NCBI RefSeq assembly: GCF_000564855.1
Contig: NZ_AYXG01000005.1
Span: 1-49,457, forward strand
Reading direction: 5' to 3'
From: Actinokineospora spheciospongiae
GTDB lineage: Bacteria; Actinomycetota; Actinomycetes; Mycobacteriales; Pseudonocardiaceae
Length of the DNA: 49,457 nucleotides
The notes beneath the pieces are model-generated. The model was not told where the DNA came from, did no database searches, and was given only the letters and a program-made list of their open reading frames with translations. Both the position numbers and the translations under genes were made by a program. Shown here piece after piece: positions 1 through 7,082 of this stretch (position 1 is its first letter; each line of letters opens with the position of its first letter).

Positions 1-78
1 CATCCGGTTGAACACCTGTCCAGCGTCCTGGAGCTTGTCGGCGATTCGACAGCGAGTAGGGCGGCCACGTCGGATTAG
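1..78 (+). CDS. possible 3' end of an unidentified CDS of the integrated element
   Basis: Frame 1 is open from the left edge to a TAG at 76-78 and reads as a plausible acidic/neutral C-terminus (HPVEHLSSVLELVGD...). It is too short to name. It lies inside the integrated element that ends near 1890. The call rests only on residue composition and on a Shine-Dalgarno-like AAGGGAGA starting just after it. Confidence 0.3.
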   Translation, partial: HPVEHLSSVLELVGDSTASRAATSD

Positions 79-93
79 TTCAAGGGAGACGGC

Positions 94-276
94 GTGAACT
101 GGCCGCGGACAGCCGCAAGTGATTTACCTGCCTGCTCACCGCGGCGCCGGAGGAGGCGTGAGCCCAGCGCGACCCCCCGACGACGGCAGCGCCCGCACGC
201 CGGTCGCCCGCGTCTACGCACGTCTCAACGACTCTTCGCGGCCGTGATCGCCGCCCCGCTTGGTGGGGAGGAGTAG
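94..276 (+). CDS. possible small basic protein of the integrated element
   Basis: A GTG-started reading frame of 60 codons follows an AAGGGAGA ribosome-binding-like sequence with 4 nt spacing. The predicted product is very Arg-rich (runs RRRRRR and RRR near residues 18-31) and has no domain I recognise. Small basic ORFs beside a serine integrase are often excisionases (recombination directionality factors), but there is no sequence evidence for that here. The GC-rich DNA could also give such a frame by chance. Confidence 0.22.
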   Translation: MNWPRTAASDLPACSPRRRRRREPSATPRRRQRPHAGRPRLRTSQRLFAAVIAAPLGGEE

Positions 277-292
277 ATCAGGACAAAGAAGA

Positions 293-319
293 GCCCCGCC
301 CGTGCGAGACGGGCGGGGC
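293..319 (-). terminator. hairpin terminator behind the integrase gene
   Basis: A perfect 11-bp stem (GCCCCGCCCGT / ACGGGCGGGGC) with a 5-nt loop lies 19 nt beyond the integrase stop codon. Read on the minus strand it is followed by a T-rich stretch (TCTTCTTTGTCC), which fits an intrinsic terminator for the integrase. Confidence 0.7.
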
Positions 320-337
320 GGGGTGTGTTCGAGCTGA

Positions 338-1867
338 TCAGGAGGCCCAGAAGTACACGCCGGAGGTGGTCAGGTCAACGACGTCCTGGACTGGGGCGGG
401 GTGGCTGATAATTTCGAGCCTGGCGGGGTCGATTCCGTGCCGCCCCCGGACACCCTTCTTGACCGTCACCGCGGAGATCACTCCGCGCAGCAGTGCGGCC
501 TTCCCGTCGTCGTCCGCCCGTTGCCACTCCTCGGCGAAGGTCGTCCCGGTGTTCCTCTGCATGGCACCTCGGGCAGCGGGACGCCTGTGAATCTCCCGGA
601 GTCTCGCTCGCAGCGCTCGCCGCTGAGTCAGGAGGATTGCCTCCTGGTCGTCGTCCGCATCACGGAATCGGGCCACGACAGCGTCGAGAGCGGCCTCCAG
701 TTCGAGCGCCTCGTCATCCTCTTGGTCATCCACGATGATCTCGACCCCTTGGACGTCGCCGACGGCTGAGAGCACGCGCTCTACCAGGTACTCCTCAAGT
801 CTGGCGCGGGAGATCACGACCCCCGGGCACTTCTGGCCGTCCGCGAGTCGGGGCCTCCGTGTGCAAGACCAGACGGGCGGTTTGCCCGGTTGGCTGACCG
901 CGTGGAGGGTCGAAGTGCAGTAGGCGCACGAGACCAGCCCCCGGAGAAGCATGTAGGGCGCGTCCACGGTCTTGGTAGACGGTAGCGAGCGCTTGTCAAG
1001 GGCGCTCTGGAGCCGCGCCCACTCGCTGGGCGACGTCACCACCGCGTCGTGCGGTTGGGTGGGGAGCCCGTCCTTTCCCCGCACGACCTCGCCTCTGTGC
1101 ACCTGCCACCCTCGGAGGATGGGACGACGGAGAAGACGTCGAAGAGCGATGTCGGTCCAGCCTCGGCGGTCAGTCTCGGAGGGTGCCGACCGACGACGCC
1201 CGCCCTTGCCTCCGGGTGCTGGGAGACCGCGCTCGTTGAAGTCGTCCACGATGGCGGAGATCGGCTCGCCCGCGCAGACGCGATCCACGGCCTCCCGGAC
1301 CACGGGTACCCGCTCGGGATCGAGTTCCAGGCGGTAGCCGGGTCCGTCCGGCCGGGGGGCAGCCCGCCAGCCGAAGGCGGCGAGCCCCCCGCGGTGGCGT
1401 CCCTCACGAACCATGTAGGCGACCGCCTCGGTCGTCCGGGCGGAGATCATGGCGGCTTCCATCGCGGCGAACGCTTGAAGAATGGTCGCCACAAATCGGC
1501 CACTCGGAGTGGACAGGTCGAGATTCTCAGCGACCGACACCAGCGCCACGCCGTTCCGGTCAGCCTCCTCGCGGAGGGCCTCCCAGTCGGCGACGTTGCG
1601 CGCGATGCGGTCGAGCTTGGCGAAGATCAAGACGTCCGTCAAACTCCACTGGTCGCGGACTTCACGGAGGCCGGGTCGGCCGAGACGGAGCCCCTTGTCT
1701 GAGCCGGACACGTCGAGGTCGGAGACCACCCCCGTGACCTGCCATCCGTGCGCCGCGGCGTAGGCCCGGCACACCTCCTCTTGACGCGCGGGTGATGTGG
1801 TCGTGTCGGTATCTCCGACGTAGGACGAGAGTCGGACGTAGATTAGAGCGCGGCGCGGGGCTGTCAT
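338..1867 (-). CDS. large serine recombinase (site-specific integrase)
   Basis: This 509-residue protein is a large serine integrase. The N-terminal resolvase/invertase catalytic domain has Y-x-R-x-S with the nucleophile at Ser14, then KLDRIARN. A recombinase domain follows, then a zinc-ribbon (CAYC near LLRGLVSCAYC, with later Cys residues) and a coiled C-terminal part, the usual order and size. The ATG at 1867 is chosen because catalytic-domain homology begins there; the frame is open further upstream only because it runs antisense over a host gene fragment. The ATG overlaps the TGA of the truncated oxidoreductase frame (ATGA) and has no Shine-Dalgarno of its own, so translational coupling to the host gene's 5' part is likely. 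It should join attP to a chromosomal attB and, with a directionality factor, excise the element. Confidence 0.93.
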   Translation of the reverse strand: MTAPRRALIYVRLSSYVGDTDTTTSPARQEEVCRAYAAAHGWQVTGVVSDLDVSGSDKGLRLGRPGLREVRDQWSLTDVLIFAKLDRIARNVADWEALREEADRNGVALVSVAENLDLSTPSGRFVATILQAFAAMEAAMISARTTEAVAYMVREGRHRGGLAAFGWRAAPRPDGPGYRLELDPERVPVVREAVDRVCAGEPISAIVDDFNERGLPAPGGKGGRRRSAPSETDRRGWTDIALRRLLRRPILRGWQVHRGEVVRGKDGLPTQPHDAVVTSPSEWARLQSALDKRSLPSTKTVDAPYMLLRGLVSCAYCTSTLHAVSQPGKPPVWSCTRRPRLADGQKCPGVVISRARLEEYLVERVLSAVGDVQGVEIIVDDQEDDEALELEAALDAVVARFRDADDDQEAILLTQRRALRARLREIHRRPAARGAMQRNTGTTFAEEWQRADDDGKAALLRGVISAVTVKKGVRGRHGIDPARLEIISHPAPVQDVVDLTTSGVYFWAS

Positions 1868-2025
1868 ATAGGCAAAATAACATTTCGGTTGTGCGTGTCC
1901 GCGTAGTTGATGCCCGCGCGCGAGACCTCCACCAGCACCTGGCCCGCGCCCGCGGTGGGGTCGGGGAGGTCGGCGGGGACGAGCACCTCGGGTCCGCCGA
2001 ACTCGGTGATCTGGATGGCGCGCAC
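1864..2025 (-). pseudogene. quinone oxidoreductase, 5' fragment cut by integration
   Basis: From a GTG at 2025, preceded by an excellent AGGAGG Shine-Dalgarno with 5 nt spacing, the frame reads as the N-terminus of an NADPH:quinone reductase / zinc-type alcohol dehydrogenase superfamily protein (RAIQITEFGGPEVLVPADLP, then QVLVEVSRAGINYADTH). A full-length relative has about 320 residues. Here homology stops after about 45 residues and the frame ends at a TGA at 1866-1864, 53 codons in total. The remainder of the gene is expected beyond the other end of the element, left of this window. The fragment keeps the host promoter and start, and its last bases overlap the integrase ATG. Confidence 0.85.
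1870..1900. other. attachment-site junction (attL/attR) of the integrated element
   Basis: The host reading frame of a quinone oxidoreductase runs down the minus strand to codons for YADTH (about 1891-1905). It then changes to an AT-richer sequence (GAAATGTTATTTTGCC on the minus strand) that does not continue the family. The integrase begins immediately beyond. The crossover therefore lies in roughly 1870-1900. The exact core cannot be read without the other end of the element. Confidence 0.7.
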
Positions 2026-2702
2026 GGGTTCCTCCTCGGCTCGACGACTGCCAGGGAACCCTAACCCCGGGTCTCAGCCCTGGCCCGCCCACGGCCAGTC
2101 CGCCGGTCTGTCGTCCTGCCCACCGGCTCCGCCCAGCATGACCAACCCCCTCCGCCCGACCCGCCTGCGCATTCCGGGGCTCAGCCTAGGGCGCCGCACC
2201 CGCGTCGTGATTCCCTTGTGGAGCCCGCAACCGCAGGTGGTGCGGCGGACCCGCGTCAAGCTCACCCTGGGTGACAGGTGTCCCGGTCCGCCTGGGCGCC
2301 CGGTCCACTCGAACAGCCGTTGTGATCACGGCGGGTTGCGCCAACTGCCCCACAGTCCGCCTCGCCATCGGTGAGCGGCGGCGGAAAAGGTTGACCCGGT
2401 CGGGGGGAATGCGGATTCACCCTCACCCCGGGCCGAGTCACCGGAATTACCCGGGTGGGCCGCCGGTCCGTGGGGGATTCACGCACGTCAGCCCGCATTG
2501 GGCTGTTCGGGTGGGTGAGTGAGTTGATCACTCACGTTTGGTGATCGGGTCAGAACGAGAGCTTCTGCACGTTCACCCGTTACGCAGGGACTCTCCACAT
2601 CGACGTATCTGATGCCCACACCTTTGCTCTACTACCAATGAGCAGGTCGGTGTGAGTGCACATACCGACCGTGACCGACGACCTGTACCGGGGTGGCACT
2701 TC
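2026..2702. other. 677-bp intergenic region between divergent genes
   Basis: No convincing gene is present; the open frames here are short and have no recognisable product. The region must contain the promoter of the interrupted quinone oxidoreductase (leftward) and of the S8 protease (rightward). The only distinct structure I see is the pair of overlapping inverted repeats at 2516-2547. Confidence 0.6.
2516..2547. promoter_or_regulatory. overlapping inverted repeats upstream of the S8 protease gene
   Basis: GTGAGTGA (2516-2523) is repeated in inverse as TCACTCAC (2529-2536) with a 5-nt spacer. The overlapping GATCAC (2527-2532) is mirrored by GTGATC (2542-2547). Only one of the two hairpins can form at a time. 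The position, about 155-190 bp before the protease start, suits an operator, but no cognate regulator is encoded nearby. Confidence 0.4.
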
Positions 2703-4400
2703 ATGGCGAGCATGGACCCATACGGCGATCAGCACACCACAGACCTGGGCGGCGGGGAGGCCGACGGGGTCTGCGAGGTGGCCGGTCCCCCGCCAACCGT
2801 CCTCATGCGTCACCGGGCGAGGTTCCTCGACCCGTCCACCGCGCTGCCCGGCCGCGGCCACCGGCGGCCGGATTCCACGGCGTACCGCACCGACACCCTG
2901 CTGGTGCCGCTGCGCCTGGCCCGCGACGCCGCGCTGATCGCCCGGTTCAACGAGGCCATCGCCTCGCTGGGCGCCGAACTGGTGGTGCGCCTGCCGCGCA
3001 CGCCGCGGTGGGCCGCCGCGCTGGAGTCCTTCGACGACGGGTTCGCCGTGCCGGTGCTGGTGCGCTGCCTGGAGGACTCCGACGCCGACGAGAGCCCGGA
3101 CCCGTGGTGCGTGCTGGTGCGGCTGCGCCGCCGGTTCCCCGACGCCGACCTGGAGGGGATCGGCCTGGAGCACCTGGCGCTGGCGGCGTCGGTGCGGATG
3201 GAGGGCGCACCCTTCGGCAGCGGGGTCCCCTTCGGCAGCGGCGTGCCGTTCGGCAGCGGCGTCCCCTTCGGCAGTGGTGTTCCGTTCGGCAGTGGAGTCG
3301 GGGGTGGCGGCGTGGCGTTGGCGACCGGGAACCGCAATCCGGTCCGGGTGTTCCTGCCCGAACCGCGCCGGGTGGCCGACCCGGCCGATCTGGTCGCCGG
3401 GCGGCGGCCGGTGGTGGCGGTGCTCGACACCGGCATCGGCGAGCACCCGTGGCTGACCGTCGGCGACCCCTGCGACGACCCGGTGGTGCAGGTGTCCGTG
3501 GAGTTCCAGGGGCTGCTGGCCGACCTGGAGGCGACCATGGTCGACGCCAGCGGCGCGGTCATGCCGCCGCTGGTGTCCCCGAACGACCAGCGCGACGTGC
3601 TGCAACCGCTGCTGGGCGTCACCGACTCGCACTCCGGGCACGGCACGTTCGTCACCGGCCTGGTGTTCCAGAACTGCCCGGACGCGCGCATCCTGTCGCT
3701 GCGGGTGCTGCACACCGACGGCATCACCACCGACGCGTCGGTGCTGCTGGCGCTGGAGTGGCTGCGCGAGCGGGTCCGCAACGCCCTGGACAACGGGATC
3801 GCCGAGGACCTCGTCGACGTGGTGTCGGTGTCGCTGGGCTTCTACCCGGAGCACGCCGACCGGCAGACCGGGCTGCTGCTGGCCGAGGCGGTGCGCAAGC
3901 TGACCGACCTCGGGGTGGTCGTGGTCGCCGCCGCGGGCAACGACGCGACCACCCGCCCGTTCGTCCCGGCGGCGCTCGCGCTCAACCCGGACGGTTCCAA
4001 CACCGGCAACCCGCTGCTGGTGGCCGTCGGCGCGCTCAACGCCTCCGGCCGCACCGTCGCCGCGTTCTCCAACGAGGGCGACTGGGTCACCCGGTGGGCG
4101 CCGGGCAACGCCGTGGTCAGCACCGTGCCGCTGTGGCAGGGCCCGGAGGGCTCGGGCCTGGGCACCCCGGGCGACGGCACGCCGAACATGACCCGCACCT
4201 CCCCCGACCCCGACGACCTGACCACCGGGTTCGCCGTCTGGGCCGGGACCTCCTTCGCCACCCCGGTGGTGGCCGGGATGCTCGCGGCCAACCTGGCCGT
4301 CGCCAAGGACGCCACCACCGACCAGGACCGCTGCGTCCGGGCGGCCGACGCGCTCGCCGCCACCGACGAGCAGTTGCGGAAGCTGGGCTGGCTGTCCTGA
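2703..4400 (+). CDS. S8 family (subtilisin-like) serine protease, probably intracellular
   Basis: A subtilisin-fold peptidase with an intact triad: Asp in VAVLDTG (residue 242), His in DSHSGHGT (313), oxyanion Asn in AAAGN (413) and Ser in GTSFATP (517), numbered from ATG 2703. The roughly 165 residues before the peptidase domain match no domain I know and end in a flexible linker of five PFGSGV repeats (170-199) and a Gly run. I see no signal peptide, propeptide or membrane segment, so a cytoplasmic location is likely. ATG 2703 has GGGGTGG 6 nt upstream; a GTG at 2652 would add 17 residues. The next gene, 87 bp downstream, encodes a CHAT protease, so the two probably act together; one plausible idea is that CHAT cleaves the linker to activate this enzyme. 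A hairpin separates the two genes. Confidence 0.88.
   Translation: MASMDPYGDQHTTDLGGGEADGVCEVAGPPPTVLMRHRARFLDPSTALPGRGHRRPDSTAYRTDTLLVPLRLARDAALIARFNEAIASLGAELVVRLPRTPRWAAALESFDDGFAVPVLVRCLEDSDADESPDPWCVLVRLRRRFPDADLEGIGLEHLALAASVRMEGAPFGSGVPFGSGVPFGSGVPFGSGVPFGSGVGGGGVALATGNRNPVRVFLPEPRRVADPADLVAGRRPVVAVLDTGIGEHPWLTVGDPCDDPVVQVSVEFQGLLADLEATMVDASGAVMPPLVSPNDQRDVLQPLLGVTDSHSGHGTFVTGLVFQNCPDARILSLRVLHTDGITTDASVLLALEWLRERVRNALDNGIAEDLVDVVSVSLGFYPEHADRQTGLLLAEAVRKLTDLGVVVVAAAGNDATTRPFVPAALALNPDGSNTGNPLLVAVGALNASGRTVAAFSNEGDWVTRWAPGNAVVSTVPLWQGPEGSGLGTPGDGTPNMTRTSPDPDDLTTGFAVWAGTSFATPVVAGMLAANLAVAKDATTDQDRCVRAADALAATDEQLRKLGWLS
3210..3299 (+). repeat. five in-frame 18-bp repeats encoding PFGSGV
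   Basis: Five tandem copies of an 18-bp unit encode PFGSGV x5 between the N-terminal region and the catalytic domain of the S8 protease. Third-position differences between copies (GGC/GGT, CCC/CCG, GTC/GTG) suggest that the peptide, not only the DNA, is maintained. Confidence 0.85.
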
Positions 4401-4411
4401 CCGCCGGTGCC

Positions 4412-4445
4412 GCCCGCGCGGCGGGACTGATCCCGCCGCGCGGGC
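4412..4445 (+). terminator. hairpin between the S8 and CHAT genes
   Basis: A perfect 14-bp stem (GCCCGCGCGGCGGG / CCCGCCGCGCGGGC) with a 6-nt loop begins 12 nt after the protease stop codon. There is no T-run. It would end or attenuate the S8 transcript before the CHAT gene, which appears to have its own -10 box just downstream. Confidence 0.6.
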
Positions 4446-4447
4446 AG

Positions 4448-4491
4448 TACTGTCTACTGCCATGGCCGGTCGTCCCAGGGCAGCGCGGTGA
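4448..4491 (+). promoter_or_regulatory. -10 box and leaderless mini-ORF coupled to the CHAT start
   Basis: TACTGT (4448-4453) fits the TANNNT -10 pattern and lies 8 nt before ATG 4462. That ATG opens a 9-codon frame (MAGRPRAAR) whose TGA (4489-4491) overlaps the GTG start of the CHAT gene as GTGA. If transcription starts at about 4460, the mini-ORF would be read as a leaderless mRNA and would deliver ribosomes to the CHAT start. Confidence 0.4.
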
Positions 4492-7082
4492 GCGCGGGGA
4501 ACGCGCGCACCCTGCGCCGGGCGGGCGCGCTGTGGCGGCGGGCCAGGGTGGCCGTCTACGCCTACGAGTTCGCCAGGGCCCGGTCGCTGTCGGAGCAGGC
4601 GCTCGACGCCCTGGACAACGCCCCGGAGCCCACCGACCAGGACCTGATCCCGATGCGGGTCCGGGTGCTGGTCACCGCCGCCTACGCCGACACCGAGGTC
4701 GGTGAGGTCGAGCGCGGCCTGGGCAGGCTGGACACCGCGGGCGGGCTCGTCGCGGCCATCGCCGACCCGGCCAGCCGCTCGGAGCTGGAGCTGCTGTCCC
4801 GGGAGCAGCGCGGTTTCCGGCTGATCCGGGTCGGCCGCACCGAGGAGGGGCTGCGCACCCTCGACGAGATCGCCGACAAGCTGGAGCGGGAGCTGGCGAC
4901 CGGGGTGGGGGAGCCCAGCGTGCTGGCGATCCTGCACCTCAACCGCAGCCTGGCCTACATCGGGCAGGCGCACACCGCCGCCGCGGTGGCCGAGGTCAAC
5001 CGGTGCATCGAGCTGACCGAACAGTACGAGATGGACCCGACCATCGCGATCAAGGCCAGGCACAACCTCGGCTACGTGGCCTACATGTCCGGGGACATGC
5101 CGACCGCGCTGCGGCTGTTCGAGGAGTCGGCTCGGACGTGCACCGAGCAGGCGCCGACGCTGCTGCCGGTCGTCCGGCTCGACCAGGCCCGCGCGCTGCT
5201 GGCCGCCGGGCTCGCCGAGGAGGCCGCGCGCAGCCTGGACGAGGCGCTGCCGGTGCTGCGCAAGCAGCGCGGCGGGCAGGACGCCGCCGAGGCCGAGGTG
5301 GCCCGGGCGGCGGCGGCGCTGCTCGACGGCGACGCCGCCTTCGCCCACCGCCGGGCCACGTCCGCGCACACCAGCTTCACCAAGCGCGGCAACCGGCGCT
5401 GGGCGGCGATCGCCCGGCTGGCCGCGGTGCGCGCGCAGGCGCAGTCCGCGCTCGACGACCGCGGGCGCACGGTGCGGCGCACCCTGGTCGACACCGCGGT
5501 CCGGCTGGCCGACGACCTGCGCGAGCTGATGCTGGAGGACGAGCGGGCGCTGGCGCTGCTGCTGGCCGCCCGGTTGCAGATCCGCCGCCGGGACCTGGGT
5601 TCCGCGCGCGAACTGCTCGACGCGGTGCCGCCGCCGCGGTCGACGACCCCGATCGACCACCGGATGCTGCTGCGGCTGTGCCGGGCGGAGCTGGCCATCG
5701 CCGCGGGCAGCCCGCGCCGCGCGTTCGCCCAGGCCCGGTCCGGGCTCACCGAGCTGGGCCGGGTGCGCGACAAGATGGGCGGGATGGAGCTGGTGTGCGG
5801 CACCGCCGTGCACGGGCAGGAGCTGGGCGAGCTGGCGGTGCGGCAGGTGCTGCGCAGGCCCCGCCCGGACGCGCGCGGCCTGTTCGGCTGGCTGGAGCGG
5901 ACCCGCGCGCAGGTCTACCGGTACGAGCCGCTGCCGGTGTCGCTGCCGCGGGAGGTGGCGGCGAAGGCGGCCGAGCTGCGCAACGTGCGCCGGGCGGTGC
6001 AGTCGGCCCGGGTGGCGGGGCAACCGGTGGCGCAGTTGGAGAAGCAGACCGCGGCGCTGGAGCGGGAGGTGTCGCGGCAGGGCTGGTCGGCCGGGGCGCT
6101 GGGCAGCCCGCGCCCGGTGGCGGCGCTGGGCGAGGTGGCCGAGGCGCTGGGGCAGCGGGCGCTGGTGTCGTTCGCCAAGCCCGACGGCGCGGTGGTGGCC
6201 GTGGTGGTGACCGCGAACAGCACCAGGATGGTGCGCCTGGGCGACTCGGCCACCGCCGCGGAGTGGGCCGCGCGGCTGCACGCCGACCTCGACGCGCTGG
6301 CCCCGGACACGCTGCCGCCGCCGGTGGTCGAGGTGGTGAAGGCGTCCGCGGCGCGCAGCGCGGGCGCGCTGGACGCGCAGCTCATCCGGCCGCTGCTCGA
6401 CGCGGTCGGCGACCGGGACCTGGTGGTCGTGCCGACCGGGCCGCTGTACGCGGTGCCGTGGGGGAGCCTGCCGTCGCTGCGCGGCCGGTCGGTGGTGGTC
6501 GCCCCGTCGGCGACCGCGTGGCTCTCCGCCGAGCGCGCCGACCCGCCCGGGGGCAGCACGCTGCTGGCCCGCGGCCCCGGCCTCACCGGGCTGGTGGCCG
6601 AGGAGGAGCACCTGCTGGCGGTCTACCCGGGCGCGGTCACCCTCGACGGCGGTCGGGCGACCGTGGCGGAGGTGCTGGCCGCGCTCGACGGCGCCGACCT
6701 GGCGCACCTGGCCGCGCACGGCGAGCACGAGCCGACGAACGCGCTGTTCTCCCGGCTGGAGCTGGCCGACGGCCCGCTGTTCGCCTACGAGGTGGCCCGG
6801 CTGCCGCAGCCGCCCCGGCAGGTGGTGCTGGCCGCCTGCGAGCTGGCGCTGAACTACGTGCGCCCCGGCGACGAGGCGCTGGGCTACGCGGGGGCGCTGC
6901 TGGCGGGCGGGGTGCGCACGGTGGTGGCGGCCACCAGCCGGGTCGGCGACGAGGCGGCGGCGACCGCCATGGCCGACTACCACCGCGGTCTGGCCGAGGG
7001 GGTCACCCCGGCCCGCGCGCTGGCCGCCTCGGTGGCCCGCGACCCCTACCGCAGGCCGTTCATCTGCCTCGGCGCGGGCTGA
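4488..7082 (+). CDS. TPR-containing CHAT-domain (caspase-like) protease
   Basis: An 864-residue protein with a long N-terminal helical array of TPR type (Ala/Leu/Arg-rich helix pairs from about residue 15 to 450) and a C-terminal CHAT domain from about 600. The catalytic dyad is visible: His744 in HLAAHGEH and Cys784 in VVLAACEL. CHAT proteins are clan CD cysteine peptidases related to caspases and separase, and the TPR part normally senses or binds a partner. No signal peptide or membrane helix is seen. GTG 4488 is supported by an AGGG about 8 nt upstream and by overlap with the preceding mini-ORF stop. The adjacent S8 protease is the obvious candidate partner or substrate. Trigger and targets are not evident from sequence. 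Confidence 0.88.
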   Translation: MSAGNARTLRRAGALWRRARVAVYAYEFARARSLSEQALDALDNAPEPTDQDLIPMRVRVLVTAAYADTEVGEVERGLGRLDTAGGLVAAIADPASRSELELLSREQRGFRLIRVGRTEEGLRTLDEIADKLERELATGVGEPSVLAILHLNRSLAYIGQAHTAAAVAEVNRCIELTEQYEMDPTIAIKARHNLGYVAYMSGDMPTALRLFEESARTCTEQAPTLLPVVRLDQARALLAAGLAEEAARSLDEALPVLRKQRGGQDAAEAEVARAAAALLDGDAAFAHRRATSAHTSFTKRGNRRWAAIARLAAVRAQAQSALDDRGRTVRRTLVDTAVRLADDLRELMLEDERALALLLAARLQIRRRDLGSARELLDAVPPPRSTTPIDHRMLLRLCRAELAIAAGSPRRAFAQARSGLTELGRVRDKMGGMELVCGTAVHGQELGELAVRQVLRRPRPDARGLFGWLERTRAQVYRYEPLPVSLPREVAAKAAELRNVRRAVQSARVAGQPVAQLEKQTAALEREVSRQGWSAGALGSPRPVAALGEVAEALGQRALVSFAKPDGAVVAVVVTANSTRMVRLGDSATAAEWAARLHADLDALAPDTLPPPVVEVVKASAARSAGALDAQLIRPLLDAVGDRDLVVVPTGPLYAVPWGSLPSLRGRSVVVAPSATAWLSAERADPPGGSTLLARGPGLTGLVAEEEHLLAVYPGAVTLDGGRATVAEVLAALDGADLAHLAAHGEHEPTNALFSRLELADGPLFAYEVARLPQPPRQVVLAACELALNYVRPGDEALGYAGALLAGGVRTVVAATSRVGDEAAATAMADYHRGLAEGVTPARALAASVARDPYRRPFICLGAG

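Follow-up and report, generated by a model that had tools for sequence, protein, structure and literature searches.

The window, a stretch of 49,457 nucleotides from Actinokineospora spheciospongiae that begins at the first base of its contig (C5), carries near its left edge a large serine integrase gene on the minus strand (338..1867, ATG start, 509 aa). The product has the three domains that mark large serine integrases (Pfam Resolvase, Recombinase and Zn_ribbon_recom, a zinc ribbon), and its closest relatives, among those listed, are 67% identical. Next to it on the same strand, we identified by sequence and by alignment with a relative the 5' stub of a quinone oxidoreductase gene (1864..2025). 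The stub frame opens with a GTG at 2025, runs for 53 sense codons, 46 from the host gene and 7 read from the inserted DNA, and ends in a TGA (1866-1864) that overlaps the integrase ATG (1867-1865) as ATGA; it is preceded by its own ribosome site, AGGAGG (2031..2036, minus strand). Thus, the retained host GTG and AGGAGG and the stop/start overlap are as the original prediction described them. The stub is 79% identical to an intact relative across the relative's residues 1-48, and its host-derived codons are 1-46, close to the predicted insertion after about codon 45. The integrase-side end of the inserted element (1..1893) runs off the contig, and the host side (1894..2700), made up of the stub and the stretch upstream of it, is syntenic with two other genomes of the genus, G004 and G012 (blastn to L010/L023 and L011/L024). 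At 3208-3300, within a divergent neighbouring frame (2693-4705), we also noted a run of ~18-base repeats that are almost identical to one another (TTCGGCAGCGG core).

Since contig C5 begins where the window does, the other end of the element cannot lie within it. A DNA search across the genus (16 genomes, including that of the window) gave some match in 14 genomes; in G004 and G012 the stub and its upstream stretch adjoin each other, and an intact oxidoreductase gene, which had been expected in relatives, was read in both (L010 and L011). With the intact protein from a relative as query, we found the 3' part of the oxidoreductase gene in the window's own genome on contig C99 (80% identity, residues 12-317 as aligned), with the host-shared part starting at the core at about residue 45; the remaining matches in that genome were at most 46% identical (27 matches listed). 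The frame adjoining this 3' part, presumably mnmA, has the same neighbour in G004. The word CACAAC is common to both ends (attL, 1893-1888 of the window, that is 1888..1893 on the minus strand; attR, L049 2319-2314), and it encodes the last two host codons of the stub, H45 and N46; the crossover falls within or near it. When the two flanks are joined, the frame is that of L010 and L011. The two ends and common core that characterize serine integrase insertions are both present, the predicted second attachment end with its 3' remnant and short core has been located, and a full-length oxidoreductase frame would be regained on excision, as had been proposed. No word of 21 bases or more is common to the final 3000 bases of C99 and the initial 2000 bases of C5, so that the middle of the element was not recovered, and attP and attB showed no clear centre when scanned for symmetry. 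We conclude that the insertion into a quinone oxidoreductase gene is real and ordinary. On the far side, the 3' remnant frame is open into the element (L049:1498-2430, 310 codons from a GTG); this frame may yield an N-terminally replaced enzyme, or it may be open by chance.

The content of the C99 side points to a phage-like element. We compared 20 frames from this side with PHROGs (E 0.01) and obtained matches for six. Two of these are to regulators, one is to a DNA polymerase/primase, one to a minor tail protein and one, a weak match, to a head-scaffolding protein; the sixth is marginal. HTH and M78 domains are present in one regulator on this side. A search of a plasmid collection returned 58 records, none with 80% query coverage.

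We examined the sequence immediately upstream of the integrase start, for which the original prediction had stated that there is no ribosome site. Indeed, none of five SD-like tetramers tested occurs in the 20 bases preceding the ATG, which are common to attL and attP. The further reading, in which the integrase lacks any start signal of its own and so depends upon expression of the host gene, was not supported. TATTTT (1879-1874, that is 1874..1879 on the minus strand), a candidate -10 box of the form TANNNT and the proposed leaderless promoter, lies six bases ahead of the ATG on the integrase-proximal side of the attachment site, and comparison with relatives (below) supports it; the prediction itself had named an integrase-proximal promoter within 1868-1900 as evidence against it, and the box sits in that stretch. 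A generic sigma-70 scan of 1700-2700 found no promoter, and the -10 consensus is a short one. TANNNT is a known mark of leaderless actinobacterial genes (PMC3160421, PMC3898074). Such genes are in any case common in Actinobacteria, with an average of 19.2% (PMC3160421) and, among genes for which a primary TSS was assigned, 26% (PMC3898074). The window integrase, with TANNNT six bases ahead of its start and no SD, has the arrangement of such a gene. The box lies 9-14 bases from the core, and the box together with the start codon spans 9 to 23 bases from it.

The same arrangement recurs among related integrases. Relatives were drawn from proteins, genomes and viral contigs (92 proteins listed of 7995 scored candidates), and 66 loci entered the count, which left out three Clostridium loci (L088-L090), 37 viral contigs whose matches were distant or partial (L095-L131) and repeats (L132, L139-L145). 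Sixteen of the 66 were dropped, 11 without a start motif, two redundant and three without usable upstream DNA; by eye, one of the dropped loci (L059) has such a box and another (L135) has an SD. The 50 starts that were kept, with start codons set by a fixed rule or from the annotation, include the window integrase itself and some recombinases that are only ~28-31% identical, and they are not independent, as some rows are related (for example L053/L054 and L084/L147). We found TANNNT at a spacer of 6-7 in 27 of these 50 starts and at a spacer of 5-8 in 31 (one at 5, 13 at 6, 14 at 7 and three at 8), compared to 13 matches at the other 50 offsets (0 to 53) pooled. Mononucleotide shuffles gave a mean of 0.8 and a maximum of 5 of 50 at spacer 6-7 (2000 rounds). 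Among the 31 boxed starts, 27 have no SD match of at least 4 letters, and in the other four the box is accompanied by an SD-like match (4 or 5 letters); the 19 starts with no box at spacer 5-8 comprise 10 with an SD match and nine with neither.

Similar results were obtained with phage integrases. From 975 phage records with a match, we hand-picked 20 actinophage loci for diversity, several of them related mycobacteriophages. At the annotated start, the box is present at spacer 6-8 in 11 of the 20 integrases, compared to three of 16 other annotated genes in the same loci. If alternative in-frame starts are allowed, the box is found in all 20 (shuffles: mean 1.7, maximum 8), with nine of the 20 requiring the alternative start. 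Integrases of five hand-picked Firmicutes phages have no box (0/5), and all have an SD tetramer (5/5). In L173, L175, L177 and L180, the annotated integrase start lies 21-66 bases upstream of an in-frame start with a TANNNT box, and these four annotated starts may be wrong.

We considered that the integrase might have no signals of its own, with the oxidoreductase promoter driving its transcription and ATGA coupling to the stub its translation, such that its supply depends upon the host gene. The co-oriented stub, with its good SD, its start codon and a TGA overlapping the ATG, fits this arrangement, as does an integrase ATG with no SD; the TATTTT at leaderless distance does not. If such coupling were general, the overlap would be conserved among relatives. 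We compared the host fragments that adjoin related integrases. Because GC3 frame scoring is unreliable on short stubs, these fragments were named by Pfam or by eye; those of L054, L083, L085, L086, L087, L093, L154 and L160 were named by eye and are presumed identities. Pfam identified the integrase-adjacent fragment in eight of nine antisense candidates (the exception, L083, we take by eye to be CpaF) and in 10 of 11 sense candidates (the exception is L055; L084 falls under the Pfam cut-off). In the 18 co-oriented stubs, several of them named by eye and one (L157) a nearly whole yebC gene, the host stop overlaps the integrase start by one base into the start codon in only three. The remaining host-frame stops lie upstream of the start in 12 of 18 (by 8 to 65 bases) or past it in three (by 38, 341 and 545). 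Moreover, an A follows the start codon in 26 of the 50 related starts, so about two overlaps would be expected from frame alone in 18 stubs, by our estimate. Thus, the ATGA overlap is at about chance level and is not conserved among relatives, and the conserved stop/start overlap that marks translationally coupled pairs is absent here.

Orientation provides a second line of evidence. The box is also present beside five of nine antisense host fragments (L146, L147, L162, L057 and L083), and it is missing beside the other four (L134, L062, L133 and L061, in the last two of which the gene may be whole); by profile positions, it is the 5' part of the host gene that is missing in L147, L162, L057 and L062. 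Furthermore, two integrases that are 81% identical (L084 and L147) adjoin opposite halves of ssb in opposite orientations, which also argues against dependence upon the host gene. Host-coupled translation as the main mode was therefore rejected, on the box, the antisense cases, the ssb pair and the unconserved overlap, and we consider dependence upon the oxidoreductase gene at the window locus to be quite improbable. The recurrence of the box, the antisense cases, the ssb pair and the near-chance overlap together make it likely that the box is the integrase's own promoter element, and a leaderless start accounts for the missing ribosome site better than dependence upon the host gene does.

The opposite ssb-half insertions lie upstream of the integrase starts (L084 ~2990-3012 and L147 ~1460-1500), and the pattern would fit a crossover dinucleotide that is palindromic there or has changed. 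In L053, L062 and L162, we also noted aldo/keto reductase genes interrupted close to profile position 40, beside different integrases and in either orientation.

The box is found beside 14 of 18 co-oriented stubs, compared to five of nine antisense fragments, which would fit some role for orientation. One form of this idea is that both inputs operate, with a leaderless promoter providing basal expression in both states and host read-through contributing a share when the element is integrated in this orientation. The co-orientation and the stub SD at the window locus, the integrase's own box and the excess of sense stubs over antisense fragments among assigned loci all agree with such a contribution, while the varying orientation among relatives does not favor it. 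This combination, which overlaps with our preferred explanation and departs from it only in the weight given to read-through, is one that we consider possible but less likely than not.

The -10 box and the -35 position fall on either side of the core, and this placement raises the alternative that the crossover splits the promoter, with a -35 half that differs between attP and attL such that recombination alters promoter strength. We found little to indicate this. The mean best -35 match was 2.7 compared to 2.5 in shuffles for 31 host or contig loci, and 2.9 compared to 2.6 for 20 phage loci, in both sets near the shuffled mean. There is a slight excess of -35-like hexamers with at least four of six matches (7/31 host or contig loci, with 11% by shuffling; 5/20 phage loci, with 13%), which fits this alternative. 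In the window element, attL offers CGGACA at spacer 16 (4 of 6) and attP at best 3 of 6, with no clear difference. We conclude that neither set of loci has more than a weak -35 signal, if any. The split -35 was therefore not supported, as the mean best match is near that of shuffles and attL and attP are similar, and we regard a promoter divided by the crossover as unlikely. The -10 box is on the integrase side of the core, so that it is kept with the integrase whether the element is integrated or excised. Thus, the integration-state switch raised by the original prediction is possible, but it is not supported.

We consider it probable, as judged from sequence comparison, that a temperate-phage-like element is inserted at codons 45-46 and that its integrase is transcribed from its own leaderless promoter in the attachment-site arm. 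According to this explanation, the large serine integrase would insert the element into the oxidoreductase codons 45-46, and the TATTTT box (1879-1874) would place the transcription start on or beside the A of the ATG. A transcript that starts at the ATG would make an SD site unnecessary. We infer both this transcription start and the leaderless translation from the box and its recurrence in relatives; the ends, the core and the restored frame were read directly. The box and start codon would lie within the probable integrase-side arm of attP and attL, as judged from an inferred arm length, and so would accompany the integrase gene whether integrated or excised, with the sequence beyond the crossover being exchanged. 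The stub and the ATGA overlap would then be by-products of the crossover position, although host read-through may add expression in the integrated state. Moreover, integrase bound to its own site would be expected to hinder its own transcription.

The recurring leaderless start beside the crossover is, to us, the interesting part of this analysis. We propose, at roughly even odds, that many large serine integrases of Actinobacteria have an attachment site that doubles as their leaderless promoter, such that the attP arm with its -10 box ends at the start codon and each integration brings new host DNA upstream of the same box. Integrase bound there would mask the promoter and the start codon together and thereby silence itself. 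If this is true, self-control of the integrase follows from a single shared arm of ~25 bases, the short actinophage attP pieces used in genome engineering may bring promoter activity with them, and the annotated starts of several integrases need revision. It would also caution against inferring coupling to a host gene from a missing Shine-Dalgarno in a high-GC genome.

In the open-licence literature searched, we found no description of a leaderless start beside a serine integrase crossover or attP, and three known systems provide points of comparison. Leaderless actinobacterial genes have TANNNT ~12 bases before the start codon, with no -35 motif found in a M. tuberculosis study, and they are described as a genome-wide class, in passages that concern neither integrases nor attachment sites (PMC3898074, PMC3160421). 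Our element shares several features with Bxb1, in which a large serine integrase gene (gp35) has its start codon abutted by attP. With the Bxb1 attP letters and length taken as given and located in the phage record, a TANNNT box at spacer 8 lies inside attP, attP ends one base before the ATG, and 24 bases separate the core GT from the ATG. In contrast, the two integrases are only 30.9% identical over 73% of the query, and the Bxb1 target is groEL1 rather than an oxidoreductase gene (PMC8092301). The window element differs from the KplE1 prophage in that its integrase is of the serine type and has a leaderless layout, its target gene encodes a protein, and its self-repression is a prediction. 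The KplE1 intS gene encodes a tyrosine integrase. It is tRNA-associated, with both -35 and -10 boxes marked, its promoter overlaps attL and its product represses its own gene, and such overlap between integrase promoter and attachment site is reported as widely encountered (PMC2951348).
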